Shown here one piece after another: positions 9,114 through 24,882 of a DNA stretch of 64,000 nucleotides. Numbering within the stretch: position 1 is the first letter of the stretch; each line of letters opens with the position of its first letter. The notes beneath the pieces were generated by a model. That model searched no databases. It had not been told where the DNA came from and saw only the letters and a program-made list of their open reading frames with translations. This DNA is from Pseudomonadota bacterium (GTDB lineage: Bacteria; Pseudomonadota; Gammaproteobacteria; Steroidobacterales; Steroidobacteraceae), in NCBI GenBank assembly GCA_021805865.1, contig JAJZDX010000015.1, positions 1-64,000 on the forward strand. Direction: 5' to 3'. The translations under genes and the position numbers were made by a program.

Positions 9114-9183
9114 CACTTCCCCCACCGCACCACCCACCATGCCGGCAGGGTACTCCGGCCCATGACGTCTCGCAAAACGCCGC

Positions 9184-10545
9184 CTACGGGGCGGTGAGTT
9201 CGAGAACGAGTCCGGCCTGATTGACCGTGGTGAGCAGCACCGGCCGGCGCCACACCCGCTGCAGATAGTCGAGCACCCTGCGGCTGCGCTCGAGGTCGAG
9301 GCCGCGGCCATCGAGCGTGTGATCGTGCACCAGCTCGAGCGTGCCGTCGGCGCGGATGTGCTGCGCCACCACCGTGGGCGCGCCGAAGTTGTATTTGGGC
9401 GCGAGAATCGCCTCGTGCAGCGCATTCAGGTCCGGCTCCAGCACCCTGATCTGCCCGTCGCGGGCGCTGTAGCGAAACAGCTCCAGCTCATCGGCCAGCT
9501 CGCGTGTCAGGTGGTTGCGGATGAAGCCGAAGTCATCGTCCTGCGCGCGGATGGCGAGAGCCCCGTCCATCCCTTCTTCCTCGACGATTTTCTCCCACAT
9601 CGAGAACCCGAGGTGGTACGGATTGAGCCCGAGCGCCACCTGGCTGTCGGCGGCTACCGGCCGGACCACGTCCGAGTGGCACTTCACGGCATCCAGGTAG
9701 GCCTGCTGCGGGATGAAGTCCGCCTCGCGCAGCAATCGCGCGTGCCAGTACGAGGCCCAGCCCTCGTTCATGATCTGGGTGGCGAACACCGGATAGAAAT
9801 AAAAGGACTCCTCGCGCACAGCCAGGAAGATGTCCCGCTCCCAACTTTCCATCTCGGGAGCGTATTGGGCCACGAACCAGAGCAGATCACGCTCGGGGTG
9901 CGGCGGCACGGGTGCGCGCTTTTTGATTTCCGCACCGGCGGGGGCGGCCGTCGGCTCCAGCGCCGCGAAGCGCTTGCGGAACTGGTCATCGGCGATGACC
10001 TTGACCGCCTCGATGTACTGCGGATAGCGCGGCCGGCGCAGCTCCTGGTCCACGTCGATATGCTGCTCGAGCGCCAATGCCGCATCCAGCACGGTCTCCA
10101 CCCGTTCCATGCCTTGCGTCTCGATCGCCTGTTGGATCTGGCGCGCGTGGTTGGCGGCGTGCTCGACGATGTGCTCGCTCACCTGCCGCTGGCAGCGCTG
10201 GAAGAGCAGGTTGTTTCGCGAGAAGTCCGCGTGCCCCAGCACATGCGCCGTCACCAGAACGTTCTCGGCCAAGCCGTTGCCGGAGGCGAGGTAGGCGTGT
10301 CCCGGGTTGCCGGGAAAGACCACCTCGAAGAGGCGTGAATGGCCCATGTGCCGCTGAATGAGCTGGTAGATGTAGCGGAGTCCGAACGACCAGTGCGGCA
10401 TGCGCACCGGCAGGCCGTAGACGGCGATCTCCATCATGAACGAGTCCGGCACCGCCTCGAATTCGACCCGATGGAACGACAATCCCGATCGGGTGGCGAG
10501 CTCCTCGATGCGCTGCACGTAGTCCTGCCAGGTCGCCTCGCTCAT
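9184..10545 (-). CDS. SpoVR family protein (YcgB-like)
   Basis: This 453-residue soluble protein matches the SpoVR/YcgB family along its length. It has FPGNPGHAYLASGNGLAENVL, VREESFYFYPVFATQIMNEGWASYWHARLL, and LGLNPYHLGFSMWEKI. The name comes from a Bacillus spore-cortex gene, but in Proteobacteria it is a conserved third member of the yeaG-yeaH-ycgB set and its biochemistry is unknown. The start ATG overlaps the stop of the DUF444 gene by 4 bases (ATGA), which argues for translational coupling. It is the last gene of the prkA operon; the EF-G-like gene begins 70 bases downstream. Confidence 0.93.
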   Translation of the reverse strand: MSEATWQDYVQRIEELATRSGLSFHRVEFEAVPDSFMMEIAVYGLPVRMPHWSFGLRYIYQLIQRHMGHSRLFEVVFPGNPGHAYLASGNGLAENVLVTAHVLGHADFSRNNLLFQRCQRQVSEHIVEHAANHARQIQQAIETQGMERVETVLDAALALEQHIDVDQELRRPRYPQYIEAVKVIADDQFRKRFAALEPTAAPAGAEIKKRAPVPPHPERDLLWFVAQYAPEMESWERDIFLAVREESFYFYPVFATQIMNEGWASYWHARLLREADFIPQQAYLDAVKCHSDVVRPVAADSQVALGLNPYHLGFSMWEKIVEEEGMDGALAIRAQDDDFGFIRNHLTRELADELELFRYSARDGQIRVLEPDLNALHEAILAPKYNFGAPTVVAQHIRADGTLELVHDHTLDGRGLDLERSRRVLDYLQRVWRRPVLLTTVNQAGLVLELTAP

Positions 10546-11711
10546 GCGCCCTCCGCCGCGCGGCTTTCCGCCGAGAAGAAATGCCGCACGGCACCCCAGA
10601 CGTCCTCGAAATCGATGAGCGCATAGCTGCCCGTCGCTCCACCGGCTGCCGCGAGCTCCGCGAACAGCCGTCCGGTCTCGGTGTCGAGCTGACGCGAAAG
10701 GCCGGTAGACACCTCCACGTAACCGGTGAAGCAGGCATCGGCGGCGATGGCCGCAAGACCCTCGCGGGCCTCCGCGGAATCGCCCACCGAGTTGTCGCCG
10801 TCGGAGGCATAGAACAGATAAATGTTGCAGGTCGCGGGGTGGTAGCGGTCTTGGATGATCTCCCGCACCTTGGCGAATCCGGTGGACGCCACGGTGCCGC
10901 CCGAGCCGCTCACCTGGAAGAACTCCGGCTCGGAGAACTCCCAGGCCTCGGTGGTGTGAGCGACGAACACGGTCTCGAGCGAGCGGTATTCCCGCCGTAA
11001 GCCCTGCACCGTCCAGAAGAAGAAGGTCTTGGCAAGCTTGCGGTCCCGGTCCGACATGCTGCCGGAGACATCGAGAAGGAAGAACACCGCGGCACGCATC
11101 GCCGGCCGGCGGCGGCGCGCGAGCTGCCGATAGCGCAGGTCCTCGTCGGTGAAGGTCGGGATCGCTCCCGGAGCGCCGCGCCGCTTCACCAGCTCTTTGA
11201 AGGAGCGGCGCCGGTCGAGCCGTGAGCGGGCGCCACGGCGGTCCCACCCCTCGCGCACCCACTCGGATTCCTCTGAAGGCCCTGCGCGGGCCTTGAGGTT
11301 GGGAAGCTGCATCTCCTCCCACAGCCAGTCCACGATGTCATCGATCTTGAGCTCGAGCAGCAGCTGGACCTCGCCCTCTTCCCGGCCCCCGGGTCCCTTC
11401 TCGCCGGAGCCGCCGGTCTGCGCGGGGTCCGCGAACACATCGCCGGGCTTGACCTTGCCCTGGCCTGCGCCCTGGCTTTCCTCGGGCCTGCGCAGACGGA
11501 AGTGATAGTGCTCGAGCATTTTCATCGGCACCCGCACCGTGCGCGCCCCACCGGTGATCAGATCGCCGCCCGCAACGATCTGCGGCAGGTGCTTGCGCAC
11601 GGACTCTCGCACCTTTTCGTCGTGCCGCAGCCAATCACGCGCGCCGCGGGAGAACAGGTCGTACCATCGGGCGGCATCGAGCGGTTGATGGGGATCGGTG
11701 GGCATATTCAT
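10542..11711 (-). CDS. yeaH: DUF444 / YeaH family VWA-like protein
   Basis: The 389-residue protein belongs to DUF444 (E. coli YeaH). The C-terminal half resembles a von Willebrand A domain with an intact MIDAS-type motif LLDVSGSMSDRDRK (DxSxS, about residues 215-228), and the N-terminal half is basic and Gly-rich. In enterobacteria YeaH is produced with the kinase YeaG under nitrogen limitation and stationary phase, and the pair acts in the same pathway. It sits 9 bases after prkA and overlaps the SpoVR start by 4 bases, so the three genes read as one operon. Confidence 0.93.
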   Translation of the reverse strand: MNMPTDPHQPLDAARWYDLFSRGARDWLRHDEKVRESVRKHLPQIVAGGDLITGGARTVRVPMKMLEHYHFRLRRPEESQGAGQGKVKPGDVFADPAQTGGSGEKGPGGREEGEVQLLLELKIDDIVDWLWEEMQLPNLKARAGPSEESEWVREGWDRRGARSRLDRRRSFKELVKRRGAPGAIPTFTDEDLRYRQLARRRRPAMRAAVFFLLDVSGSMSDRDRKLAKTFFFWTVQGLRREYRSLETVFVAHTTEAWEFSEPEFFQVSGSGGTVASTGFAKVREIIQDRYHPATCNIYLFYASDGDNSVGDSAEAREGLAAIAADACFTGYVEVSTGLSRQLDTETGRLFAELAAAGGATGSYALIDFEDVWGAVRHFFSAESRAAEGA

Positions 11712-11720
11712 GATCGGCCG

Positions 11721-13694
11721 TCACTCCTGCGCGAGCAATGTCGTGACGTAACTCAGGGCTTCCTTCGCACTATACTCGTCATAGCCGTATTCGTTGATCA
11801 AGCGCTGCTGCACGACCGAGATCTTCTGCCGCGCGTCCTCGTCCGGCCGGGCGGCGGAGGTGACCAGCCTCAGCACATCGCGCCGCTCCTCGAACAAATA
11901 CTGCTCGATGGCCTCGCGCATGCGCGCGTGGCTCGCGAGCTTGAACTTCTCCCCTGCCTTGAACGCGACCATCGCCTTGCGCACCACCTCCTGACGGAAA
12001 GACAGCTTGCCCGAATCCGACACCTTGATCTTCTCCTCGACCGAGCGCAGGAAGCGCTCGTCAGCGGGCCGGGCTTCCCCGGTGATCGGGTCGGCGACCT
12101 GCCGGTGATCGAGCGAGGCCTCGACCTCGTCGAGGTATTTCTCGAGCAGCTGCTGCGCCTCCTCCTCGAACGAGGCAAACATGGCGCGGTGCACGTCCTC
12201 CTTGACCCAGCGGTTGTAGAACTCCTTGCGCGCGGTGACCAGGTGATCGATCCAGGCCTTCTTCTGCTTGGCCTCCATGCGTGCGTCGCTCTCGATGGCG
12301 TCCTTCAGCGCGAGCAGCAGCTCCATGCTCGTGAGGCTGTGAGTGGTGCCGCGGGTGATGGCGGTGGAGATCGCGTTGATCACGAACCGCGGACTCACCC
12401 CGTTCATGCCTTCGTCGGGGGACTCGGAGCGCAGTCGCACCGCCTCGGTCTCGGGCACTCCCTCGATGGCCTCGCCGGAATACAGGCGCAGCTTCTTCGC
12501 CAGATCGAGCCCTTCGCGCTCGGGCTTGGTGAGGCGCGTCAGGATCGCGAACACCGCCGACAGGTTGAGCACGTGCGGGTCCAGATGCACGTTGCGGAAG
12601 GCGGCAGCGCCCGAGACGAGCTTCTGGTAGATGCGCGATTCATCCTTGTACGAAAGCGCATAGGGCACCTTGATGATCACCATGCGATCGAGCAGCGCCT
12701 CGTTCTCCTTCTCCTGAAGGAATTTGTGGAATTCGGCGAGATTGGTATGCGCAAGCACCGTCTCGTCGAGGTGAATGAGCGGAAAGCGCGAAACCTTGAC
12801 GTTCTTCTCCTGTGTCAGGGTGAGCAGGAGGTACAGGAACTCCCGCTTCACCTTGAGGATCTCGATCATCTCCAGCAGGCCGCGGCTCGCCGAGTACACC
12901 GCCCCGGACCACGACCAGGCGCGCGGATCGCCCTCATCGCCGATCTGTGCGACTTTGGCGAGGTCGACGGAGCCGACCAGGTCCGCGATGTCAGCCGTCG
13001 TCGGGTCGTGCGGCGCATAAGTGCCGATGCCGAAACGCGAGGCCTCCGAGAGAAAAATGCGCTCGACCGGCACGCTCACGAAGTCCCCTTCGAACTCCCG
13101 CTCGACGTAGTCACGGGCCCAGGGGGAGAGCTCGCCTTGAATGGCCACGCCATAGCGCTCGCGGAACTCGGCCCGCAGGCTCGCCGGAACGAGGTTCAGC
13201 GGATTCTCGTGCAGCGGCGAGCCCTTGATGGCGTAGAGCGCGCCTGCCTCCGTGCGGCTGTATTCCTCCATGCAGCGCTTGAGCAGAATGGCGAGGGTCG
13301 ACTTGCCCCCCGAAGGCGGTCCCAGGAGCAGCAGGAGCCGCCGCCCGACATCAGAGCCGCCCGCGGCCGCCTTGAAATACTCGATCACCCTCGAGAGCGG
13401 CTCGTCGATACCGAACAGCTCACGCCTGAACAACTCGCGGGCGCGCTCGCTCTCGCTCGCCTCGCTCCGGGTGAGTTGCCCGTGCCAGCGCAGCATGTCC
13501 CAGATGTACTCGTGACTGCTGCGCGCCAGAGCCGAGGGATTGGCCGGCAGGACACCGGCGAGGAACTCACCGAAAGTCCCTTCCCAGCGTTGCGCGCGAT
13601 GCAAGCGACTGAAAGAACTCAAGGATTCGATGAAAGCTGAATGGTCGATGAATGTACCCGAGCGCCCCCCGGGATCAGCGGCAAGTGATCGCAT
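11721..13694 (-). CDS. prkA: PrkA family serine protein kinase (YeaG-like)
   Basis: The 657-residue protein combines an N-terminal AAA-type module with the Walker A sequence LLGPPSGGKSTLAI (about 125-138) and a C-terminal PrkA kinase-like domain. E. coli YeaG is a stress kinase induced by nitrogen starvation; Bacillus PrkA has a role in sporulation and may be an AAA protease. The GGGAGG ribosome-binding site ends one base before the ATG at 13700 but seven bases before the ATG at 13694, so the latter is chosen. It is the first gene of the prkA-yeaH-spoVR operon. The 635-base region upstream has no gene I can support. Confidence 0.95.
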   Translation of the reverse strand: MRSLAADPGGRSGTFIDHSAFIESLSSFSRLHRAQRWEGTFGEFLAGVLPANPSALARSSHEYIWDMLRWHGQLTRSEASESERARELFRRELFGIDEPLSRVIEYFKAAAGGSDVGRRLLLLLGPPSGGKSTLAILLKRCMEEYSRTEAGALYAIKGSPLHENPLNLVPASLRAEFRERYGVAIQGELSPWARDYVEREFEGDFVSVPVERIFLSEASRFGIGTYAPHDPTTADIADLVGSVDLAKVAQIGDEGDPRAWSWSGAVYSASRGLLEMIEILKVKREFLYLLLTLTQEKNVKVSRFPLIHLDETVLAHTNLAEFHKFLQEKENEALLDRMVIIKVPYALSYKDESRIYQKLVSGAAAFRNVHLDPHVLNLSAVFAILTRLTKPEREGLDLAKKLRLYSGEAIEGVPETEAVRLRSESPDEGMNGVSPRFVINAISTAITRGTTHSLTSMELLLALKDAIESDARMEAKQKKAWIDHLVTARKEFYNRWVKEDVHRAMFASFEEEAQQLLEKYLDEVEASLDHRQVADPITGEARPADERFLRSVEEKIKVSDSGKLSFRQEVVRKAMVAFKAGEKFKLASHARMREAIEQYLFEERRDVLRLVTSAARPDEDARQKISVVQQRLINEYGYDEYSAKEALSYVTTLLAQE

Positions 13695-14329
13695 GGCCAT
13701 ACCTCCCGTTTCAAAACGGCAGTGAGGATCGCGCCTGGTGCCCTCGCCTTACGATCGGATCCAACGCCTCGCACGGCGTCACGGCTGCCCAACTCCCGAT
13801 CCCGATGCCCTGCTCCATTTAAGACGACCGCCGTGAGGAATCGTTCCGGTACGGCTGCGGTGCACCGCTTTGCCCGCTTGCCGGTCCGCCTGCACATCGA
13901 TGGTGCACCGCGCACCATCGACGCGTATGCCGGTCTCGCTGACCGCCTCATCGAGTAGCCGTCCCTGGCGCCCGCACCGCCGCCCTGGCCCAAGGCCCGC
14001 CGCCGGCGCAGCTCACCTCGCACTCTGCTTGCGATCATCGGCCTCGCCGCCCCGGAAGTCGAGATTACCCCCGGACATGGCTTTGAGATAAGCTTCCCGG
14101 GATTCGCGCCAGTGCCGCTTGTCGAAAGTGAGCACCGCTTCCGGTTCCGCCGCGCCGGCCCCGCGATCCGATCGATAATGTGAACGGCGACACTGCGCGC
14201 CACGGCCACGACCTGCTAAAAAAAAACGCACGGCGCCAATGACATGCCCGCGGCGGGAGGGTACCGGAGATCGGTACGCTGCAGGCTGCAAGCGCGCGAG
14301 CGCGTCTGAGAAGAACATGGAGACCGGTT
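13695..14329. other. gene-free region between prkA and the TonB/CheA cassette
   Basis: This 635-base stretch between divergent operons must carry both promoters. The only clear structure is the inverted repeat at 13897-13921. A minus-strand reading near 14020-14150 encodes VLTFDKRHW followed by a charged tail, which resembles the C-terminal end of a PIN-domain protein, but the frame upstream of it does not match and no start or partner is visible. I do not annotate it as a gene. Confidence 0.5.
13897..13921. repeat. perfect inverted repeat, 10-bp arms, 5-base loop
   Basis: TCGATGGTGC, then ACCGC, then GCACCATCGA. The arms are perfectly complementary. No T-run follows on either strand, so it does not look like an intrinsic terminator. 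It lies about 200 bases upstream of prkA and could be an operator for a dimeric regulator. Confidence 0.5.
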
Positions 14330-16405
14330 GTGGCCCATCCCGCATCAAAAGCCTCTCAAGACCTCGCCGGTGCCCCCGCAGCCCCGGGCTCACCGTCCTT
14401 CGTCCAACATCCGGCGGATCTTGCCGCGCTCACCGGACGCGATGACTTCCTGCTCGAGCTCGGTGAGCTGCTCGGCGGACGGGCGAGCGTGCATCCGGCC
14501 GACTCCATCGAGGCGGCGCTCGAGCGTCTCGGCGAGGCGCGAGGCACCCGGGTGCTCGCGATCGACACCCGCGACACCGGCGATGTGCGCGTCAATGTCG
14601 CACGGGCCTCGCAGCAGACCCCCGACGCCCTCATCCTGGTGTTTACCGAAGCGCAGTCTGAGAAGGAGACCGCCGCCGCGCTGAAGGGCACCAGGGTGTT
14701 TGCCGTCCTGCCCGTCCCGCTCGAAGCGGATAAAACCGCGGCGGTGCTGGAAGCGGCGCTGACTCACGCCGGCCGCGGCGCCGCGGATCGGCATTCAGCT
14801 ACCCGTGATGCAACTTATGACATGACACGGAGATCGGCGGCGGACACGGAGGAGCCGCCGGCCCGGCGCGGGATGCTCTGGGCGGGCATGGGCGCGGCCG
14901 TCGTGGCGCTTGCGGCGGGCGCCGGCTGGTACCTGCTGCGCAGTGGGGCGCCGGCTGCGGCGAGCGCCCGGGGCCGCATCGCCGGCTCCCATGCGCTCAC
15001 CCGGCACGCAGCGGCATTTGCGCAGCCCATGGTGGACACCTCGATCGTGCGAGGGCGCGTCGACGTTCTGTTGGACAAAGCCAGCCGGGCCATGTTCGAG
15101 AGGCATTTCACCACGCCCAGAGGCGCCAATGCCCTGGTGTATTACCGCTCCGTGCTGGCCGCCGACCCGGCCAACGGCGAGGCCCGCAACGGTCTGCAGC
15201 GGGTCGGAAACGTGCTGATCTCGCGGTTCGATGACACGATGAGCCGCGCGCAGTACCCGCAGGCGGCGCTGGCGCTCGCCACCCTGAGGGTGGCCGAGCC
15301 GACCGACCCGCACATTGCATCTTTCCAACGCAGACTCTACGCGGCAGAGATCTCCCAGGCGGTTGCGAGCGCACATCCCGGGCGGGCGGCGGCCCTGTTG
15401 GCTCAGGCCGCCCGGGCGGGGGTGCCGGCCGTGCAGCTGCGCACCTGGCGGGCGCAGCTTTCGCAGATGAAACAGCACCGGAAGGTCCAGAGTCTCGCTG
15501 CGGCGATCACCGGGGATATCGGCGCCGATGATTTCAACGGTCCGACCGGCGCGCTGGCGGAGCTTGCGCAGCTGCGCACGGCGGCGCCCAAGGCGCCGGG
15601 CACGCGGCGCGCCGGGCGAGCCCTGGTCAGGGCCTTGCTCGCGAAAGCCGCTCGGGATGCGCTGGCCGGCAACACCACCGAGGAGAGCAGCTGGCTGAGC
15701 GCGGCCCGATCCATCGGCGCATCCCCCGGCGACATCGAGGCGTTCGAGCAGAGCCTTGTCGCAGCGCGGGCGCAGGCGGCCCAGGCCAAGGTGACTCGAC
15801 TGCTCGCGCTCGCACGCGAGCGCCTCGGCAGCGGCGCGCTCACCCGGCCGCACGGCGACAGCGCTGCGTATTACCTGACGGCCCTCGAGCAGACGCATCC
15901 GACGGGTGCCGCCCTCGCGGCCGAGCAGCAGGCCCGGGGCGAGCTCGCCGGGAAGCTCCTCGACCGCGCCGAGGCCGAGGCGACAGCCGGCAAGGGCACC
16001 GCGGCGCAGGCCGATGTGTCCGAGGCCCGCCTTTGGGGCGCCGATGGGGCCGCGATCCGTTCGGCCAGGAGCGCGATCACCGCCTCGCTGCGGCGGGCGC
16101 AGCAGCCCACCGCGGCCGATCTCGAGCAGCTTGCCGCCAAGCTCGTTCGGACGCGCTATTTGCCGCCTTCGTATCCCGAGCATGCGCTTGCAGATCGAAT
16201 CGCGGGACAGGTCACCGTGCAATACGTCATCGACAAGAAGGGCTTCCCGCGGGATGTGCGCGTGATCTCGGCGCGGCCCGCCGGCGTATTCAACCGCGCC
16301 ACTCTCTCTGCGATCCGGGCATGGCGCTACCGGCCGGCGAGATTCCGCGGCCACCCGGTCGACGTACCGGTCCGCACCCTCATCCGGTTCGTGCTGCCGA
16401 ACTAG
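14330..16405 (+). CDS. TonB C-terminal domain membrane protein with receiver-like N-terminus
   Basis: The 691-residue protein has an unusual layout. Residues ~25-150 resemble a response-regulator fold, with alternating beta/alpha segments (VLAIDTRDT, DALILVFTEA, VFAVLPVPLEADK). The acidic pocket is incomplete, so it may be a pseudo-receiver. One membrane helix follows at ~181-206, then ~390 residues of Ala/Leu/Arg-rich helices with TPR-like spacing. The last ~85 residues are a TonB C-terminal domain (ITVQYVIDKKGF-like strand, then AIRAWRYRPARFRG). A GGAG site 7 bases ahead supports the GTG start. No ExbB/ExbD genes are nearby. The following kinase starts 36 bases downstream, so a signalling or envelope-coupling role seems more likely than classical iron uptake. 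Confidence 0.8.
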   Translation: MAHPASKASQDLAGAPAAPGSPSFVQHPADLAALTGRDDFLLELGELLGGRASVHPADSIEAALERLGEARGTRVLAIDTRDTGDVRVNVARASQQTPDALILVFTEAQSEKETAAALKGTRVFAVLPVPLEADKTAAVLEAALTHAGRGAADRHSATRDATYDMTRRSAADTEEPPARRGMLWAGMGAAVVALAAGAGWYLLRSGAPAAASARGRIAGSHALTRHAAAFAQPMVDTSIVRGRVDVLLDKASRAMFERHFTTPRGANALVYYRSVLAADPANGEARNGLQRVGNVLISRFDDTMSRAQYPQAALALATLRVAEPTDPHIASFQRRLYAAEISQAVASAHPGRAAALLAQAARAGVPAVQLRTWRAQLSQMKQHRKVQSLAAAITGDIGADDFNGPTGALAELAQLRTAAPKAPGTRRAGRALVRALLAKAARDALAGNTTEESSWLSAARSIGASPGDIEAFEQSLVAARAQAAQAKVTRLLALARERLGSGALTRPHGDSAAYYLTALEQTHPTGAALAAEQQARGELAGKLLDRAEAEATAGKGTAAQADVSEARLWGADGAAIRSARSAITASLRRAQQPTAADLEQLAAKLVRTRYLPPSYPEHALADRIAGQVTVQYVIDKKGFPRDVRVISARPAGVFNRATLSAIRAWRYRPARFRGHPVDVPVRTLIRFVLPN

Positions 16406-16441
16406 ATCGGAACCCAAGACAACACCAGGGCAAGGCTTGTC

Positions 16442-18577
16442 ATGCAATTCTCAGGCTCAGATCGAAACGGCAGACTGCTCATCGCCGGTGCCGCCGCAGC
16501 CATCGCAGCCGTCATGGTGCTGGTGCTCATCGCCGGGTTCCGGCTGGCGACCCAAATCCGCGCCAGCGTCGGAGCGCTGCAGAGAACCAGCTCGCTGCAG
16601 ACCTATCCTGCGGTCATCTCCCAACAGTTGACGGCCCTGCGCCAGCGGCTCGGCACCCTGGAGTACACCGGTCACGTGCACCGGGAGCTCGCCCGCACCG
16701 TGCAGAATTTCAACAGACGTTTGTCCGGGGTCGAGCGCCGCAACCTCGACCCGGCGGCGGTCCGGCACGCCGAGCGCCTGTGGCAGAACTACACCCCGGT
16801 GCTCGCGCCCGTGCTCGCCTTCTCCGGGGAGCCCTATGACGATACCGACACCGGCAGCTCGCTGTCGGCGAGCGGCCGCAAGTATTACGACGAGGTGCGG
16901 CAAGCGGGCATCTTCGCGCAGGGAAACGCTCCGGTCCTGCACAGCGAGCTGGCCGCCGTCTCGGCCGCGCTGCAGGCGCGTACTTCCGCTGCGGCCGCGC
17001 GCCTTCGCACGCTGCTGCTCGCCGGCGTGCTGGCGGTTCTGCTGCTCGCGCTGGCGGCCGCCTACCTTCAGCTCTCCCGTGCGCGGCAGCAGCGGGCGGC
17101 GCGCGAGGCCCAGGATCAGACCCGCGACATCCTGAAGACCGTGCGCGAAGGCTTCTTTCTTCTCGACGCCGACTACCGCATCGGTGCGGTGTGGTCGGAA
17201 GCCCTGACGCACCTGTTCGGGCGCAGCGATTTCAAGGGCCTCGCTTTCGAAGAGCTCCTGCGGGACAAGGTGCCCGCAGACACTCTGGCCACTGCGGTGA
17301 AGTACATCAAGCTCCTGTGGGGGGAGCGGGCGCGCGAGAACCTGATGAAGAGCATCAACCCGCTGGGGCAGCTCGAGGTCAGCATGGACAATGGACGCGG
17401 CGGCAAGGAGAGCCGCTTTCTGCAGTTCGATTTCCATCGCGTGATGGGCCCGAAGGGCGTCAAGCACGTGCTGTGCGCCGTCGGCGACATCACCTCGAGC
17501 GTGCTGCTTGCCAGGGAGCTGCAGGAGGCCCAGGAAAACGCCCACTCGCAGCTCGACATGATGATCGGCATGCTGCATGCCGATCCTCTGCAGGTGAGCG
17601 CCTTCCTCGACAGCGCGGCCGCGGGCCTGAAGCACGTCAACACCATCATGAAGGAGCCGGCGCGCACCGACGGCGAGTTCCGCAAGAAGCTCGCCGGACT
17701 CTCGCGCGAGCTGCACTCGATCAAGGGGGAAGCCTCGGCGCTCAGCCTGATGAGTGTCGCCGAGCGGGTCCACCACCTGGAGGATATGGTGGCGGAGCTC
17801 AAGGCCAAGAGCGACCTCACGGGCAACGACTTCCTGCCCGTGGTGCTGAAGCTCGATGAGCTGCTGGCGCACCTGCGTGGCGTCAGGGAGATGACCGCGC
17901 GCCTGGTGTCGCTCAAGGAAGGCCCCGCCGGGGAAGGTACGGCGAGCCTGCCGCAGTTGCGAATCGGCGATGCCGAGGCACCGCAGGCGGGGCGGCCCGT
18001 CCGAGCGACCGTCGATCTTGGCGCACTGCTCGAGCAGCTGGCCGGCAAGCTGGCAAGCGACCACGGCAAGCAATTCAGGCTGACGCTGACTGGTCTCGGC
18101 GAGGTGCCTGCGGGCTATCTCGACACCGTGAAGGACTGCGCCATTCAGATGTTGCGCAATGCCGCGGTGCACGGCATAGAGGCGTGCGAGACGCGCCGCA
18201 CCGCCGCCAAGCCCGAGATCGGCGAGGTGCGCCTGGAGTTCCGTCGCCTGGAGGCGGGATACGAGTTCGTTTTCCACGACGACGGCGCGGGCCTCTCGCC
18301 CGAGGCCTTGAAGGAGGCGGCAGTGCGCAAGAACGTCATCACCGCAGAGGAAGCCGCGGCGCTCGACAACCGGGCGGCGCTGGCGCTCATCTTCCGGCCC
18401 GGCTTCTCGACCCGCGACAGCATCTCGATGGATGCCGGGCGCGGCACCGGCATGGATCTCGTGGCGCGCGCAGTGTACGGTCTTGGCGGCAAGATCGGCG
18501 TCAGCACCAATCCGGGCCGCTTTACCCGCTTCAAGATCACCTTGCCGGCGGCCGGCGCGGCCTCCGCGGTGGCTTGA
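16442..18577 (+). CDS. CheA-like membrane histidine kinase with PAS and HPt domains
   Basis: This is a 711-residue inner-membrane protein. Two membrane helices (~12-33 and ~186-208) enclose a ~150-residue helical periplasmic sensor. A PAS-like segment follows (~230-340). An HPt domain has the phospho-acceptor motif LHSIKGEA with His at about residue 425. The C-terminal HATPase domain has CheA-type boxes: MLRNAAVHGIE, DDGAGLS and GRGTGMDLV preceded by GFSTRD. Neither the P3 dimerisation helix pair nor a CheW-like P5 domain is evident, so this is not an ordinary chemotaxis CheA. The His likely passes phosphate to the CheY-like protein encoded 24 bases downstream. Confidence 0.88.
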   Translation: MQFSGSDRNGRLLIAGAAAAIAAVMVLVLIAGFRLATQIRASVGALQRTSSLQTYPAVISQQLTALRQRLGTLEYTGHVHRELARTVQNFNRRLSGVERRNLDPAAVRHAERLWQNYTPVLAPVLAFSGEPYDDTDTGSSLSASGRKYYDEVRQAGIFAQGNAPVLHSELAAVSAALQARTSAAAARLRTLLLAGVLAVLLLALAAAYLQLSRARQQRAAREAQDQTRDILKTVREGFFLLDADYRIGAVWSEALTHLFGRSDFKGLAFEELLRDKVPADTLATAVKYIKLLWGERARENLMKSINPLGQLEVSMDNGRGGKESRFLQFDFHRVMGPKGVKHVLCAVGDITSSVLLARELQEAQENAHSQLDMMIGMLHADPLQVSAFLDSAAAGLKHVNTIMKEPARTDGEFRKKLAGLSRELHSIKGEASALSLMSVAERVHHLEDMVAELKAKSDLTGNDFLPVVLKLDELLAHLRGVREMTARLVSLKEGPAGEGTASLPQLRIGDAEAPQAGRPVRATVDLGALLEQLAGKLASDHGKQFRLTLTGLGEVPAGYLDTVKDCAIQMLRNAAVHGIEACETRRTAAKPEIGEVRLEFRRLEAGYEFVFHDDGAGLSPEALKEAAVRKNVITAEEAAALDNRAALALIFRPGFSTRDSISMDAGRGTGMDLVARAVYGLGGKIGVSTNPGRFTRFKITLPAAGAASAVA

Positions 18578-18600
18578 GGCTCGCTGCGGAGCTTGGGGCA

Positions 18601-18990
18601 ATGGGCGCGGCAGAGAGCAGCGGCAGGCGGCAATTTCGGCTGTTGATCGTCGATGACTCCAACATCATGCGGCGGCGCATCGAGCGTTCGCAGCGTTTCG
18701 AGGAGCTCGAGGTGGTCGGCACGGCGGGCGACGGGCTCGAGGCGCTCGAGCTGGCGCGCCGCACCGATCCGGACCTCGTCACCATGGACCTGACCATGCC
18801 GCAGATGGACGGGATCGAGTGCATCTCCAGACTGATCGCCATGAAGCCCTCGTTGCGCATCCTCGTGATTTCGGCGCTCTCGGACAAGGCGACGGCGGTG
18901 CAGGCCATGGAGCAGGGAGCCAATGGCTTCCTGCACAAGCCGTTCACCGACCGGCAGTTGAACGATGCGATCGCAGAGCTGATATCCTGA
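18601..18990 (+). CDS. CheY-like single-domain response regulator
   Basis: The 129-residue protein is one receiver domain. The acidic pair is in LLIVDDSN (about 14-21), the phospho-acceptor Asp in VTMDLTMPQMDG (about residue 62), the conserved Ser in VISALS, and the Lys in FLHKPF. There is no output domain, so it should act by protein contact or as a phosphate relay or sink. It begins 23 bases after the CheA-like kinase, its likely donor, and is followed by a CheX-like gene whose product may dephosphorylate it. Confidence 0.93.
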   Translation: MGAAESSGRRQFRLLIVDDSNIMRRRIERSQRFEELEVVGTAGDGLEALELARRTDPDLVTMDLTMPQMDGIECISRLIAMKPSLRILVISALSDKATAVQAMEQGANGFLHKPFTDRQLNDAIAELIS

Positions 18991-19024
18991 ACGGCGGGAC
19001 TCGAGAGCTAAAGAGCGCCTCAGA

Positions 19025-19471
19025 ATGCTGCGCGAAGAAGAACTGAAGACCTTCGTTGACGGCACCACCCGGTACTTCGAGGTGGCCGCACAGCAGCCGG
19101 CCACCATCGGCTCGCCGTACCTGCTCGAGGGTGATCTGGCGGTACACGATTACACCGGCGTCATCAGTGTGTCGGGCAAACGGGAGGGCGTGGTGTATTT
19201 CACCGCGCCGCGGGCCATGCTGACGGTGCTGCTGATGAAGATGCAGGAAAGCGATTTCAGTCACGAGAACATGCGCGACCTAGTCGGCGAGGTGGCCAAC
19301 ACCATCTCCGGCAATGCCCGCAAGGACTTCGGCCACGACTTCGTGATCTCGGTGCCGAGCGTGCTCACGGGCGATAAGCCCGAGATCCCGCGAAAAGCCG
19401 GCATGCGCTCCTTCGTCATTCCCATCAACTGGCGCAGTCACTCCGCCAAGCTGGTGGTGTCGTTGACGTAG
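19025..19471 (+). CDS. CheX-like phosphatase domain protein
   Basis: The 148-residue protein has the CheX/CheC-like pattern. The central helix DLVGEVANTISGNARKDF carries the E-x2-N pair that dephosphorylates CheY-P in CheX and CheZ-type enzymes. A hydrophobic strand pair and SVPSVLTG complete the fold. It lies 34 bases after the CheY-like gene in a kinase-receiver-phosphatase set. Its 3' end overlaps the 3' end of the minus-strand btaB gene by 47 bases. Confidence 0.87.
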   Translation: MLREEELKTFVDGTTRYFEVAAQQPATIGSPYLLEGDLAVHDYTGVISVSGKREGVVYFTAPRAMLTVLLMKMQESDFSHENMRDLVGEVANTISGNARKDFGHDFVISVPSVLTGDKPEIPRKAGMRSFVIPINWRSHSAKLVVSLT

Positions 19472-20198
19472 CGGGCTTGCGGCCGATGAAGATGTAGTAC
19501 GGCGCAGTCACGCCCGGCAGGTACGGCACGCTGCCCCGCCGCTCAAGAAGCAGCCCCTGCGGCATCGCCGCCTCGAGCGCCTCGAGATGCCCGGGATCGA
19601 GGCTGACCCCGTCGTGGGCGAACCAGCGGCGCCAGAGCCACCTTTCCCAAGCCGGATGGCGCACGTGCCGGGCCGGCGGCGTTGCGGATGAGACGTAGAA
19701 ATCGACCACCCCGAGCGTGCCGCCGGGCCTGAGCAGGCGCAGCGCGTTGGCGAGAGCCGCCCTCCAGTCCTCCATCATCGTCAGCGCATAAGAGAAGTAG
19801 ACGCAGTCGACCGGCTGCGCCGAGCGATAGGCGCCGACCTCGGCTTCCACGACCTCGACGTTGGCGTGGCGCGCAGCCCGCGCCCGCGCCCGCTCCAGAA
19901 GCGCCGGGCACAGATCTACGAGGGTGAGCCGGCTCAGCGCCGGGAGCCGCTCGCCGAAGCGCTCGAGGTTCTCGCCCGTGCCGCAGCCAAGCTCCACGAC
20001 CACCGACCCGGAGTACGCCGGCAGCCGGCCGATCAGCTCCTCCCGTCCGTGCAGCAGCCGAGCGCGGAAGGCGTCATAGCGAGTGGCCTGCGGCGCGTAG
20101 AACGCCTGCAGCCGCTCGCGGGCATTGCCCGAGCGGGGCAGGCCGCGCAGCATGCGCCAGAGGACTCTGGAGTCGGCGAGCAGATCAGGCGGCGACAT
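19425..20198 (-). CDS. btaB: betaine lipid N-methyltransferase BtaB
   Basis: This 257-residue SAM-dependent methyltransferase has the glycine-rich motif VVELGCGTGENL (about 64-75), then LTLVDLCPALLERARA and the motif-IV-like YFSYALTMMEDW. BtaB adds three methyl groups to diacylglyceryl-homoserine to give the betaine lipid DGTS. The assignment rests on its place directly after btaA, with which it overlaps by 14 bases. The ATG at 20198 opens right at the family-like start; in-frame ATGs at 20219 and 20231 are also possible. Its C-terminal codons overlap the convergent CheX-like gene. Confidence 0.85.
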   Translation of the reverse strand: MSPPDLLADSRVLWRMLRGLPRSGNARERLQAFYAPQATRYDAFRARLLHGREELIGRLPAYSGSVVVELGCGTGENLERFGERLPALSRLTLVDLCPALLERARARAARHANVEVVEAEVGAYRSAQPVDCVYFSYALTMMEDWRAALANALRLLRPGGTLGVVDFYVSSATPPARHVRHPAWERWLWRRWFAHDGVSLDPGHLEALEAAMPQGLLLERRGSVPYLPGVTAPYYIFIGRKPATSTTPPAWRSDCAS

Positions 20199-21381
20199 CG
20201 CAAATGTGAAAGCCCGCATAGGTATGAACACGGTCCTGTGCGGTGAGCTCGTGTGCGAGCCGCTCGTGAAAGACGAGCAGCTGGGGCAGCCGGGCGCCGT
20301 CGATGTCGATCGTCTGCAGGTAACGCGGACGGCGATGCGCGCTACGGAAGATCAACCGCGCTCCGGGGGTGGCATGACGCAGGATCTCGCGCCACTCCCC
20401 GGTCAGCGCCTGTCGGTCGTGGCTCGCCATCCAGTCCATGTGATCGAGCAGAATGAACTTCGAGATCCGCTCGTCCGATCCACGCAAGAACCCGGTCACC
20501 GTCGCGGTATGCGGCACGATGCGCTCGGCGAGCCCGGCCTTGAGCGCCGCGAAGTTCTCCGGCCTGAGGTACTCCGGGCAACAGGAGCGGGTATACCGGC
20601 CCTCCAGGTACAGCCGCCAGAAGTAATTCGTCGCCAGGGGCAGGTGACAGAGCACGTATTCCACGCAATCGCGCACGTAGCCTGCGACACCATCGGCGTG
20701 CTGCGCCTCGACCTCTCGGCGCTGCGGCCGCGGAACCCCGAGCAAAGACAGCGTCAGCTGCCGCGACAGCGCCCAGCTCATCCCCGCCCCCCACATCAGC
20801 GGGCCGACCCGCTCGGCATAAATCGCCCGCTGCTCCTCGAGCGAGCCGGCGCCGAACAAGGCGCGAACGCACGCCGACAGGCGCGGGCGTGCCGCGAAAT
20901 ATGCCCTGAACGCGCAGGCGACCAGGCCGGAGAGGCCGTGGAAATAAAAGCTGCCCCGGCGGCTCGTGAACCACACGTGATTACGGTCCCAGTACTCGCG
21001 TGCGAACGGCGAGAGCTGCTCGCGCAGCCCGTGCAGGTAGAGCGGCTGGAAACCGGAGTGATAGCCGCCGCCGAATATCCGGAAGAAATCCTCGAACCCG
21101 AGCGAGCGCACTCCCGCGAGCTTCAGCTCAAGGAGCGCCGTCTGCCGGGGATTGGCGTCCACGGCATGAATGCGCCGCGGTGCGAGCAGCGCGTAGTCGA
21201 GTGCATTGCACCCGGCGCTGGTGATCACGAGCAGCGTGTCCCGCGAGTCGATGGCGAGCGCCTGCCGGTCGACCGCCGGATCCTCCCAGCACGTGTTATA
21301 GACCAGGGACCTCGAGTACAGCGCCTGAAACAAGCGCTCGTCGATCCGCTCGCTGAGTTTCGCCAGGTACCGCAATGACAC
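20185..21381 (-). CDS. btaA: diacylglycerol 3-amino-3-carboxypropyltransferase BtaA (DUF3419)
   Basis: BtaA moves the 3-amino-3-carboxypropyl group of S-adenosylmethionine onto diacylglycerol, the first step to betaine lipid DGTS. The 398-residue sequence shows the DUF3419 features: LVYNTCWEDPAVD near the N-terminus, LLVITSAGCNALDYAL (SAM site) and IHAVDANPRQTALLELK, with SKFILLDHMDWM near the C-terminus. No ATG is available. The GTG at 21381 is chosen because the Pho boxes at 21417-21460 and a possible -10 at 21406-21411 lie just upstream; a GTG at 21405 is the alternative. It forms an operon with btaB and lies just downstream of kdpE on the same strand. Confidence 0.92.
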   Translation of the reverse strand: MSLRYLAKLSERIDERLFQALYSRSLVYNTCWEDPAVDRQALAIDSRDTLLVITSAGCNALDYALLAPRRIHAVDANPRQTALLELKLAGVRSLGFEDFFRIFGGGYHSGFQPLYLHGLREQLSPFAREYWDRNHVWFTSRRGSFYFHGLSGLVACAFRAYFAARPRLSACVRALFGAGSLEEQRAIYAERVGPLMWGAGMSWALSRQLTLSLLGVPRPQRREVEAQHADGVAGYVRDCVEYVLCHLPLATNYFWRLYLEGRYTRSCCPEYLRPENFAALKAGLAERIVPHTATVTGFLRGSDERISKFILLDHMDWMASHDRQALTGEWREILRHATPGARLIFRSAHRRPRYLQTIDIDGARLPQLLVFHERLAHELTAQDRVHTYAGFHICDVAA

Positions 21382-21416
21382 GTCACACCGCAATGAGCTT
21401 GTCACACGTTAGCCGA

Positions 21417-21475: not shown

Positions 21476-22174
21476 CTAGGTCTCGTCGGCGCGCAGGCGG
21501 TAGCCCAGGCCCGCCTCGGTGATCAGGTAGCGCGGCTTGTGCGGATTGGGCTCGATCTTGGCGCGCAGGCTCTTGATGCAGACCCGCAGGCCCCTCGAGT
21601 CGCCAAGCCGCTCCGGCCCCCAGACCTCGCGGATGAGCTGATTCTGGGTCACGATGGCCCCGAGGTGCCGCGCCAGGCACTCCAGTACCCGGTACTCGAG
21701 CGGCGTCAGATGCACCTCCGCGGAGGGCGTGCGCGCCTCGCGCTTGGCCAGATCGAGCTCGAGCGGGCCGAGCTTCAGGGCCGAAGTCTGCTCCGGGCCG
21801 CGCACATTGCGTCTGAGCGCCGCACGCACCCGGGCGAGCAGCTCCGGGGCGCTGAAGGGCTTGGTCACGTAGTCGTCCGCGCCGCCATCGAGTGCGGCGA
21901 TCTTCTGCTCTTCCATCGCGCGTGCGGAGAGCACGATGATGGGCACGGGCGACCAGGCGCGCACACGCCGGATGATCGCCTGGCCATCGCCGTCCGGCAG
22001 ACCGAGGTCGAGGATCAGCAGGTCCGGCTTGTGGCTGCGGGTCTCGATCTCGGCGCGCAACGCCGAATCGGCCTCGATCACCCGATAGCGCTCGGCCTCG
22101 AGCAGCACCTTCAGCACGTTGCGGATCGCGGGCTCGTCCTCGATCACCAGGATCTGGTGCATCGCCTCCGTCAC
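21476..22174 (-). CDS. kdpE: KdpE response regulator
   Basis: The 232-residue OmpR-type regulator has an N-terminal receiver (IEDEPA acidic pair, phospho-Asp in LILDLGLPDGDG at about residue 56, Lys in TKPF) and a C-terminal winged helix (LTPLEYRVLECL, RVCIKSLRAKIE). KdpE activates kdpFABC at low potassium or high osmolarity. Its start overlaps the kdpD stop by 4 bases. Confidence 0.96.
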   Translation of the reverse strand: MTEAMHQILVIEDEPAIRNVLKVLLEAERYRVIEADSALRAEIETRSHKPDLLILDLGLPDGDGQAIIRRVRAWSPVPIIVLSARAMEEQKIAALDGGADDYVTKPFSAPELLARVRAALRRNVRGPEQTSALKLGPLELDLAKREARTPSAEVHLTPLEYRVLECLARHLGAIVTQNQLIREVWGPERLGDSRGLRVCIKSLRAKIEPNPHKPRYLITEAGLGYRLRADET

Positions 22175-24882
22175 GCGCTCTCCCCGGTCGGCAGCGTGAA
22201 CTCGAAGCGCGCGCCGCCGCCCTCGCGCCTGTGCGCCTCGATCTCGCCGCCGTGGGCGCGCACGATGGCGCGGCAGATCGCCAGGCCGAGGCCGGCGCCG
22301 GCCACGGCGCTTTCACCGCTGCCCCGCTGAAACTTCTCGAAGAGCTGCTCCGGATCACCCGGCGGAAACCCCGGTCCCTCGTCCTCGACTACCACACGCA
22401 CCAGGCTGCCCTCGACGGCCGCGTTCACGCGGGCGTGGGTGCCGGCCGGAGTGTACTTGGCGATGTTGTCGAGCAGATTCGCGAAGACCTGCACGATGAG
22501 CCCGGCGTCGACGTGCACCGGTGGCAGGTCCGGCGGCAGATTGAGATCCACGGCGTGGTCCTTCAGGCGCTCCTCGAGCCGCTCGAGCGCCGCGCCCACG
22601 AGGTCCTCGAGCCACTGCCAGTCGCGCAGCAGCGCCACCTGCCCCGACTGGAACCGCGTCAGATCGAGCACGTTGGACACGAGATCCGACATCTCGCGGG
22701 CCTTGCGCTCGATGGAGGCGGCAAGCGTGGCGCGCAGATGCGCATCGAGCGCCTCGCCCCGCTCCGCCAGCGTGCTCGCCGCGCCGGCCATCACCGCGAG
22801 CGGCGTGCGCAGATCGTGTGAGATCGAGGCGAGCAGCGTGTTGCGCAGACTCTCGCGCTCCGCGGCGAGGCTCGAGGTCTGCGCCACATCCGCCAGGCGC
22901 GCCCGCTCGATGGCCAGTCCGATCTGACCGGCAAAGGTATCGAGCAGGTGGCTCTGCTCGGGCAGCAGCACACGCCGCGGATTGGTGGGCAGAACCGCCA
23001 GCACGCCGCTGTGGCGCTGCTCGTCGCCGAGCGGCACATACAGCGCCGGGGCGGCGGGCAGCGTGTCGGAGCCCAGGCCCGCCCGGCGGCCGTGATCACC
23101 CACCCATTGCGCCACCGCGAGGTCGGCGCCGCGGAAGGAGCTCTCCGTAGGAGCGCCGGAGGGTCGGCGGAGCTTGCCTTCCTCGTCGGGCAGCAGCACC
23201 ACCGCTGAGCACTGGAAGACCTCGGCGACGTGGCGCACCGCCACCCGCGCGATTTCCTCGATGCCGCGCGTGACGGCCAATTCCCGGCTCATGGCATAGA
23301 GCATCGCCGTGCGCCGCTCGCGCGCGCCGGCAACACTGGTCTGGCGGCGGACGTTGGCCGTCAAGGTGGAGATCACCAGGCCTATGGTCAGCATGGCGGC
23401 AAAGGTGATGACGTATTGAACGTCGGAGATCGCGAAGGTGAATCGGGGCGGCACGAAGCAGAAGGCGAATGCCGTGACATTGACCACGGCGGTGAGCGCG
23501 GACGGCCCGCGCCCGAGCCGCAGCCCCGCGACGGTCACCCCCAGCAGGTAGACCATGGCGAGATTCGACAGCTCGAAGCGCGGATACATGGCAAACGCCA
23601 GCAGAGTAGACATCGCGCTCACCCCGAGCGCCCAGCCGTAGCGCTCCCACCGGATGGTCTGCGGGAGGCTCTGCGAGCCCGGCCGCGCCGCCGATGAGGG
23701 CGAGGCGGGGGGGCCGCCCGCCGGCGCGATCACGACCACATCGAAGCCGCGTGCGTTGCGGACGAGATGAGTCGAAGTGGATGGCCGAACCCATGCTTTC
23801 CACGCCCGTCGCTTGGGCGCGCCGACCACCAGACGCGTGGCCCGGCGCGTCTGCGCGTATTCGAGGAGCGCCGCGGCGGCCGAGGGACCGTCGAGAGTCA
23901 CGGTCTCCGCGCCCAGCGACTCCGCCAGGCGCAGCACATCGATGCGCCGGTTGCGGTCGGCGTCGGACAGGTGCAGCAGCGCCGGGGTCTCGACATACAC
24001 CACCGTCCAGCGCGCCGCCATCGCATCGGCCATGCGCTTGCCGGCGCGCACCAGCTGCTCGGCCTGATCGTCTGGGCCGACCGCCACCAGGATGCGCTCG
24101 CCGGCGATGCGGGCGCGGGCTCGCTCCGGATGCAGTGCCCGCGAGGCGGCCTCGACGCGCTCGGCGACGCGGCGCAAGGCGATCTCGCGCAGCGCCATGA
24201 GATTGGGCTTGCGAAAGAACCGCTCGACCGCGGTGGCGGCGGCGGCATCGGCGACGTAGACTTTACCGGCCTGCAGCCGCGCCAGCAGGTCATCCGCCGG
24301 CAGATCGATCAGCTCGATGTTGTCGGCCTCGTCGAAGACTCTGTCGGGCAGAGTCTCGCTCTGGCGAACGCCCGTGGTCTGGTAGATGAGATCGTTGAGG
24401 CTCTCGATGTGCTGGACGTTGACCGTGGTCCACACGTTGATGCCGGCTTCGAGCACTTCCTCGATGTCCTGCCAGCGCTTGGGGTGGCGCGGCTGGGGGA
24501 CGCCGCCGGTGAGATTGGAGTGGGCAAGCTCATCGACCAGCAGGATGCCCGGGCGCCGGGCGAGCGCCGCGTCCAGGTCGAATTCGTGGCGAACGATGCC
24601 CCGATAGCTGACGGCGAGCGTCGGCAGCCGCTCGAGCCCCTCGGCGAGACGCTCGGTCTCCACCCGGCCGTGCGGCTCGAGGTAGCCGATCACGACGTCG
24701 GTGCCCGCCGCCTTGACGACGCGCGCCGCTTCCAACATCGAGAAGGTCTTGCCGACGCCGGCGGAGGCGCCGAAGAAGATCCGCAGCTTGCCGCGGTTTG
24801 CACGCGCCTCCTCGGCCTGCACATGGGCGAGGAGCTGGTCCGGATCGGGCCGGGATTCCCCCCCCGGGCTGGTGCGATTCAT
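22171..24882 (-). CDS. kdpD: KdpD sensor histidine kinase
   Basis: The 903-residue kinase has the complete KdpD order. An N-terminal KdpD domain holds Walker A GASAGVGKT (about 38-46) and LVDELAHSN. A universal-stress-protein-like domain (~250-375) is followed by four membrane helices (~405-500), a GAF domain, HisKA (SISHDLRTPLAVM) and HATPase (NLLDNIAKYTPAG, DEGPGF, GAGLGLAICRAI). It senses potassium limitation and turgor and phosphorylates KdpE. The gene follows kdpC after 81 bases. Confidence 0.97.
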   Translation of the reverse strand: MNRTSPGGESRPDPDQLLAHVQAEEARANRGKLRIFFGASAGVGKTFSMLEAARVVKAAGTDVVIGYLEPHGRVETERLAEGLERLPTLAVSYRGIVRHEFDLDAALARRPGILLVDELAHSNLTGGVPQPRHPKRWQDIEEVLEAGINVWTTVNVQHIESLNDLIYQTTGVRQSETLPDRVFDEADNIELIDLPADDLLARLQAGKVYVADAAAATAVERFFRKPNLMALREIALRRVAERVEAASRALHPERARARIAGERILVAVGPDDQAEQLVRAGKRMADAMAARWTVVYVETPALLHLSDADRNRRIDVLRLAESLGAETVTLDGPSAAAALLEYAQTRRATRLVVGAPKRRAWKAWVRPSTSTHLVRNARGFDVVVIAPAGGPPASPSSAARPGSQSLPQTIRWERYGWALGVSAMSTLLAFAMYPRFELSNLAMVYLLGVTVAGLRLGRGPSALTAVVNVTAFAFCFVPPRFTFAISDVQYVITFAAMLTIGLVISTLTANVRRQTSVAGARERRTAMLYAMSRELAVTRGIEEIARVAVRHVAEVFQCSAVVLLPDEEGKLRRPSGAPTESSFRGADLAVAQWVGDHGRRAGLGSDTLPAAPALYVPLGDEQRHSGVLAVLPTNPRRVLLPEQSHLLDTFAGQIGLAIERARLADVAQTSSLAAERESLRNTLLASISHDLRTPLAVMAGAASTLAERGEALDAHLRATLAASIERKAREMSDLVSNVLDLTRFQSGQVALLRDWQWLEDLVGAALERLEERLKDHAVDLNLPPDLPPVHVDAGLIVQVFANLLDNIAKYTPAGTHARVNAAVEGSLVRVVVEDEGPGFPPGDPEQLFEKFQRGSGESAVAGAGLGLAICRAIVRAHGGEIEAHRREGGGARFEFTLPTGESA

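Follow-up and report, generated by a model that had tools for sequence, protein, structure and literature searches.

Chemotaxis in Thermotoga and Borrelia employs CheA-CheY-CheX chemistry, and sensor kinases of another kind, as in the TorT-TorS and LuxP-LuxQ systems, have periplasmic binding-protein partners. The locus described here shares elements with both. It lies in a 64,000-nucleotide stretch of DNA (the window: positions 1 to 64,000 of contig JAJZDX010000015.1, assembly GCA_021805865.1) from a Pseudomonadota bacterium of the family Steroidobacteraceae. It comprises four + strand open reading frames (ORFs) at 14330-19471, delimited from an ORF list and the sequence (Table 1), which encode a protein with a TonB C-terminal domain (TonBC, 691 amino acids (aa)), a membrane histidine kinase (KIN, 711 aa), a stand-alone receiver (129 aa) and a predicted CheX phosphatase (148 aa), with intergenic gaps of 36, 23 and 34 bp. 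Pfam matches, together with the ORFs, bear out this quartet, which an earlier note made from the letters had proposed, i.e. TonB_C (63.6 bits) on the first product, Hpt (26.3 bits) and HATPase_c (43.7 bits) on the second, Response_reg (101.1 bits) on the third and CheX (71.5 bits, cut-off 27) on the fourth. The receiver start, an ATG at 18601, was read off the sequence, the ORF list having a longer overlapping frame from 18184; the Pfam scan of this product began at 18604.

As in the CheA-CheY-CheX systems, the cassette has a CheA-type Hpt domain and P4 ATPase, a single receiver, and a CheX with an ExxN motif. By contrast with those systems, its kinase has neither a CheW domain nor a P3 hairpin and is itself a membrane sensor, and the locus is without genes for a methyl-accepting chemotaxis protein (MCP), CheW or CheR. 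The earlier note had made the same point, and there are indeed no CheW, MCPsignal or CheR matches on the window's contig; since the rest of the genome contains five CheW-domain, five MCPsignal, three CheR and one FliM match, the absence concerns the locus and not the genome as a whole. The note had also known of no described pathway with this gene set, with which our search of the open-access literature, having most subscription papers outside its reach, agrees in that no description of the set was found.

The unit that is conserved is the kinase-receiver-CheX trio, a conclusion that is well supported. When 196 genomes of the order were searched with the window kinase as query (a match being a score above 250 bits, with at most five candidates scored per genome), the kinase was found in 30, a CheX match in 31, and both side by side in 29, leaving one genome with the kinase only, two with CheX only (G097 and G170) and 164 with neither. 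Because the 30 kinase-bearing and 31 CheX-bearing genomes overlap in 29, the grouping of the two genes in the order is far beyond chance. Kinase, receiver and CheX occur together in 28 of the 29 relative loci above 250 bits for which neighbourhoods were fetched. A broader set of 100 non-redundant kinase loci was assembled from 109 entries (29 from whole genomes and 80 named loci, the latter the best 80 of 577 confirmed in a wider scan) by removing three duplicates (L068, L069 and L081) and putting aside six with kinase scores below 250 (L141, L142 and L144-L147), the window itself not being counted; in this set Psychrobacter is over-represented and several loci run into contig ends. Both partners are beside the kinase, on the same strand and within 1.5 kb (receiver) and 3 kb (CheX), in 92 of the 100 loci, and both lie downstream of it in 87. 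The four genes as a conserved unit can, however, be rejected, as TonBC is near only 33 of the 100 loci.

Some loci weigh against a strictly conserved trio. At the lone exception among the 29 relative loci (L063, genome G179) a kinase of 504 aa stands by itself, six of the 100 loci have no CheX nearby (L063, L112, L122, L130, L133 and L137), and in two the parts are further apart (L088 and L138). In a class-wide sample of 369 genomes, with at most three candidates scored per genome, the kinase was found above 250 bits in 12, at 17 copies in all. Each of the 12 has at least one copy with CheX alongside, as is the case for 15 of the copies, whereas the two extra copies have no CheX match next to them. 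CheX matches (E up to 0.001) occur in 72 genomes of this sample, 61 above the curated cut-off. The proposal that CheX is exclusive to this system at class level was rejected on these numbers (72 genomes with CheX vs 12 with the kinase); CheX must have other partners too, because 60 genomes carry a CheX match without such a kinase.

Carriers of the trio include Psychrobacter, Moraxella atlantae, Neisseria wadsworthii, Cardiobacteriaceae, Azoarcus, Caenimonas, Parathalassolituus, Peristeroidobacter, a Verrucomicrobiota metagenome-assembled genome (MAG), and Turneriella and Treponema MAGs. The arrangement varies: receiver and CheX precede the kinase in the Turneriella and Treponema MAGs, and in L105 two genes separate the kinase from a CheX gene upstream of it. 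In the Treponema MAG loci L135, L138 and L140 the order is receiver, CheX, an extra gene (diacylglycerol-kinase-like in L135) and kinase; in L112, L122 (a short contig) and L133 the kinase adjoins a receiver with CheX not nearby. Tandem CheX genes stand behind the receiver in L090, L092, L094, other Psychrobacter loci and L131, a GExxN motif being kept in both L092 copies and in the second L131 copy. In a Cardiobacteriaceae MAG a HemS/ChuX haem-utilisation gene directly follows CheX (L128:12400-13533).

The catalytic parts of the receiver and of CheX look active as judged by their residues. Among 93 sequences of each (the 92 loci and the window), receiver D18, D19, D63, K113 and S/T91 and CheX E89 and N92 are all present in 93 of 93. 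The receiver thus has the acid pair, acceptor Asp, Ser/Thr and Lys of a single-domain response regulator, and no output domain. The CheX protein matches five PDB sequences named CheX, CheC-like or putative chemotaxis protein, and the ExxN motif has an active-site role in CheX and CheC. No consistent neighbour beyond CheX, as might point to downstream targets of the receiver, was found in the loci compared. One study (PMC8789113) gives the role of a CheX-family protein of Vibrio cholerae, VC0377, as undetermined.

The kinase contains both an Hpt domain and a CheA-type P4 ATPase, as found by Pfam, profile and structure comparison, and H425, N573, D613, G615, G666 and G668 are invariant in 58 aligned kinases, the ATPase residues belonging to what we take to be the N, G1 and G2 boxes. 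The alignment included 12 picked of 120 listed proteins nearest the window kinase; among the matches listed, several of the nearest are labelled Steroidobacteraceae. The kinase is nevertheless not a CheA, an assignment rejected because it has no CheW domain or P3 hairpin and has periplasmic helices and a PAS-like domain of its own. Only 0-19 residues follow Pro702 in all 58 kinases, leaving no CheW (P5) domain, and the window copy has no Pfam CheW match. In place of a P3 hairpin the model has a low-confidence linker (498-518) followed by a single helix (520-540), with 54 residues between residues 488 and 543 (median 46, range 29-118 in 58 rows). A survey of CheA proteins (PMC10542144) found the CheW domain in 100% of those that it covered and describes CheA as being without a sensor domain. 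The PAS-like domain, which occupies the interval between the second transmembrane (TM) helix and Hpt and was not in the earlier note, is assigned from the model, the Pfam scan of the window kinase giving no PAS match.

The periplasmic helical bundle of the kinase lies between two TM helices, as in PilJ/NIT-type sensors (PilJ, McpN, NarX), to which it may be related, with weak profile matches; unlike in those sensors, the output is an Hpt/P4 kinase rather than an MCP or a kinase of the HisKA type, and the window copy falls below Pfam detection. The sensor part of the relatives' kinase profile weakly matches 7zjr (Protein PilJ) and 6gcv (chemotaxis transducer), and Pfam PilJ scores 30.9 bits on the relative in L057 (cut-off 26.6) with no match on L062 or L123. 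Against a PilJ-like sensor in the window is that its own kinase gives no Pfam PilJ match; the VIA-align comparison, in which no PilJ or PAS chain is listed, is a poor test for those parts. The PilJ domain of McpN binds nitrate, according to PMC6381276.

The trio is not dependent on chemosensory arrays, because three carrier genomes, those of Neisseria wadsworthii (L098) and two MAGs (L105 and L123), have it in full with no CheW, MCP or FliM match; the MAGs are weaker evidence of absence, and completeness is not given for any of the three. Among the 16 carrier genomes examined, a CheW match is missing in these three and a FliM match in 11; a need for flagella was rejected on the latter count. 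In this respect the earlier note's kinase, carrier and eraser set, with no CheW or MCP at the locus, has held up, being conserved, invariant in its catalytic residues and present where CheW, MCP and FliM matches are missing altogether.

These observations are consistent with a receptor-free two-component switch made from chemosensory parts, which in the window's family would be joined by a TonB-armed pseudo-receiver adaptor; we hold this overall proposal tentatively, at slightly less than an even chance. As a genetic and structural unit the core switch is well supported; its chemistry we infer from the invariant residues. The kinase would use its periplasmic helices and its PAS-like domain for sensing, and autophosphorylate on His425 through the CheA-type ATPase; the lone receiver would then take up the phosphate at Asp63, signal by protein contact and be reset by CheX through E89 and N92. 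In the window's family, the pseudo-receiver of TonBC would dock on the kinase Hpt domain, with the periplasmic TPR/TonB-C arm anchoring this complex at the wall or the outer membrane, such that TonBC would be an input partner, a role that solute-binding proteins would fill in relatives.

TonBC was described in the earlier note as an envelope-spanning membrane protein, with which its TM helix and TonB-C arm agree, but it is more than that, in that it also has a cytoplasmic N-terminal receiver-fold domain that the note had not noticed. In the AlphaFold2 model (mean predicted local distance difference test score, pLDDT, 83.2) this domain resembles, by Foldseek, the receiver structures 3hv2, 3kcn and 2jk1. 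Pfam Response_reg gives no match on the window TonBC and, among four relatives, one above the cut-off (L152, 42.5 bits), one below it (L148, 19.7 bits) and none on L150 and L153; because only one of the four is above the cut-off, fold and alignment are the main grounds for calling the domain a receiver. The TonB C-terminal domain is shared with TonB energy transducers; by contrast with these, TonBC has the receiver-fold domain, a TPR-like arm and a TM helix (residues 183-203) with no Ser or His, ExbB/D-coupled TonB proteins having a Ser/His motif in the TM helix. The open-access literature searched contains no description of a receiver-fold-TM-TPR-TonB_C architecture, and we know of none. Proteins of this type (L148-L158) lie away from the cassette, and two of them (L151 and L152) are of ~950 aa with two receiver-like domains.

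The proposed tie between the core and TonBC holds within the window's family and not beyond it in the order: TonBC is linked to the trio in 23 of the family's 24 kinase-bearing genomes (the exception being the kinase-only G179) and in none of the six in other families, among which the upstream side of L064 is off the contig. In the 33 loci of the 100-locus set where it is near the kinase, TonBC is directly upstream in 24, ~1.3 kb upstream in three and downstream of CheX in six. In L049 the histidine kinase is separated from TonBC by a Ser/Thr protein kinase gene (8437-9750), and genes related to the latter adjoin the histidine kinase in L056 and L063.

Where TonBC is lacking, the place directly upstream of the kinase is taken, on the same strand, by a solute-binding protein gene in 17 of 67 loci, of the SBP_bac_3 type in 12 (10 Psychrobacter, Moraxella and one Neisseriaceae), Peripla_BP_4 in three and Peripla_BP_6 in two. 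Eight of these (L088, L105, L109, L112, L122, L123, L126 and L131) were identified by Pfam and the other nine, all Psychrobacter, by clustering with L109. The arrangement recalls TorT-TorS and LuxP-LuxQ in that a binding-protein gene adjoins a sensor kinase, but the kinase is of another class, there is a CheX eraser, and in the window TonBC takes that place. The position of these genes suggests that a periplasmic partner may feed the kinase. Against this, such neighbours are found in a minority of loci, and Psychrobacter supplies 10 of the 17; several upstream genes belong to other families, i.e. MscS-type (L102), ABC ATPases (L093, L118 and L124) and an ABC exporter (L084), or have no Pfam match (L141 and L125). 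Members of a further gene cluster (NMT1_2 in L101) occur within 6.5 kb of the kinase, but never directly upstream, in L085, L089, L093, L101 and L124.

It may be, then, that TonBC is a trans-envelope adaptor, its arm reading the state of an outer-membrane receptor or the wall and its pseudo-receiver docking on the kinase in place of a solute-binding protein, such that the TonB domain would carry information inward rather than energy outward; in this detailed form the proposal is possible but doubtful. It draws on the conservation of the pseudo-receiver. At the position of the conserved Lys of active receivers, Lys is found in 5 of 44 TonBC rows vs 10 of 11 paralogues, and acid-pocket position 37 is Arg in 27 of 44 rows vs Asp in all 11 paralogues. 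The cassette context is known for 15 of these rows; the other 29, picked for spread from 120 listed, are database entries that lack such context. In the window's clade (31 rows) 8 of 11 positions of helix alpha1 are invariant, with an entropy of 0.30 as compared with 1.32-1.47 for alpha2-alpha5. Response regulators contact their kinase or Hpt partner through alpha1; since this helix is nearly frozen in the TonBC of the window's clade, we infer that TonBC may dock on the kinase without phosphate switching. Several points weigh against the docking and input roles. The alpha1 conservation is confined to the window's clade, being lacking in the paralogues and in 13 other cassette copies, and 29 of the 31 rows are database proteins of unknown genomic context. 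Moreover, as TonBC is downstream in six of 33 loci and 1.3 kb upstream in three, the slot that it would have in common with solute-binding proteins is not strict.

The same receiver-like features could instead mark TonBC as an output, with the phospho-receiver or the kinase acting on the pseudo-receiver to move or stiffen the TonB arm and so regulate an outer-membrane receptor or wall contact. The linkage with the trio, the invariant Asp of the receiver-fold domain and the lack of an output domain on the stand-alone receiver all accord with this, as does the finding that the five cassette copies retaining Lys all have TonBC downstream of CheX. However, because the window has Val at the Lys position and position 37 is mostly Arg, phosphorylation switching of the pseudo-receiver is doubtful; the TM helix is unlike that of ExbB/D-coupled TonB proteins; and TonBC, not being found near 67 of the 100 loci, is not a general output. 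We consider an output role rather unlikely.

That TonBC is a mere neighbour with an independent envelope role, as for its relatives outside the cassette, is quite improbable. Eleven paralogues of the same layout are encoded at other places in the order, five of them in genomes where no kinase scored above 250 bits, so that the ancestral role of TonBC was apparently independent of the kinase, a point that also counts against the adaptor proposal, and its position within the cassette varies. Yet the linkage in the window's family persists despite those differing arrangements, and the pseudo-receiver of the window's clade departs from the paralogues at the Lys position, the acid pocket and alpha1. 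Finally, a role of the trio in feeding ordinary flagellar or pilus chemosensory systems, its receiver joining their CheY pool and CheX being their phosphatase, as the chemotaxis genes elsewhere in the window's genome, the single CheX match there and the weak PilJ-like signal might suggest, is distinctly unlikely given the carriers without CheW and MCP or without FliM and the presence of CheX beside the kinase in 29 of the order's 31 CheX-bearing genomes.

A transmembrane CheA-type core that does its own sensing, has an eraser to itself and works without a receptor array would be a reduced system in which to study CheA chemistry without P3, CheW or MCP. Given the swap of periplasmic neighbours, which are of three binding-protein families or TonB-armed, the sensor module may be of a plug-in kind, and if the TonB arm does report envelope state to the kinase, this would be a new use for the TonB domain. 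Because the core is found in Gamma- and Betaproteobacteria and extends to a few other phyla (in the best 80 of the 577 loci), its output would matter in many bacteria.

Table 1. Positions of the cassette genes and of their assigned or predicted parts in the window
Feature	Position	Strand	Basis
TonBC: receiver-fold domain, TM, TPR-like periplasmic arm, TonB C-terminal domain, 691 aa	14330..16405	+	Pfam, AlphaFold2, Foldseek
TonBC cytoplasmic receiver-fold (pseudo-receiver), residues 28-150	14411..14779	+	five beta-alpha units in model; Foldseek
TonBC alpha1 of pseudo-receiver, residues 38-48, predicted kinase-docking face	14441..14473	+	8/11 positions invariant, 31 clade rows
TonBC Asp79, phospho-acceptor position of receiver fold	14564..14566	+	44/44 rows, 11/11 paralogues
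TonBC Val129, at conserved Lys position of active receivers	14714..14716	+	alignment
TonBC single TM helix, residues 183-203	14876..14938	+	model
TonBC TPR-like helical-repeat periplasmic arm, residues 244-603	15059..16138	+	model; TPR matches on relatives L148, L152, L153
TonBC TonB C-terminal domain, residues 607-688	16148..16393	+	Pfam 63.6 bits; Foldseek 1u07, 6i97_D
KIN membrane histidine kinase, TM1-periplasmic helices-TM2-PAS-Hpt-P4, 711 aa	16442..18577	+	Pfam, profile, model
KIN periplasmic helical sensor, residues 31-190, PilJ-like in relatives' profile	16532..17011	+	structure model
KIN PAS-like domain, residues 233-350	17138..17491	+	strand/helix order in model
KIN Hpt domain, residues 351-492	17492..17917	+	Pfam Hpt; five helices in model
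KIN His425, predicted phosphorylated His	17714..17716	+	invariant in 58/58 aligned kinases
KIN CheA-type P4 ATPase, residues 520-703	17999..18550	+	
Stand-alone receiver, CheY-like, no output domain	18601..18990	+	Pfam; invariant catalytic residues
Receiver Asp63, phospho-acceptor	18787..18789	+	93/93 sequences
CheX phosphatase (predicted)	19025..19471	+	Pfam; PDB sequence matches
CheX E89-x-x-N92 active-site motif	19289..19300	+	both 93/93

The genes flanking the cassette in the window are on the - strand. On the downstream side, 19425-21405 holds a DUF3419 gene and then a methyltransferase gene, a pair that presumably resembles BtaA-BtaB of betaine lipid synthesis. It is followed at 21476-24882 by a KdpD-KdpE-like pair; of 11 relative loci from the same genus, 7 have a KdpE-like gene beside the cassette. 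On the other side, a PrkA gene and the next gene (10542-13700) are divergent from the cassette, and PrkA, too, adjoins it in 7 of those 11 loci.

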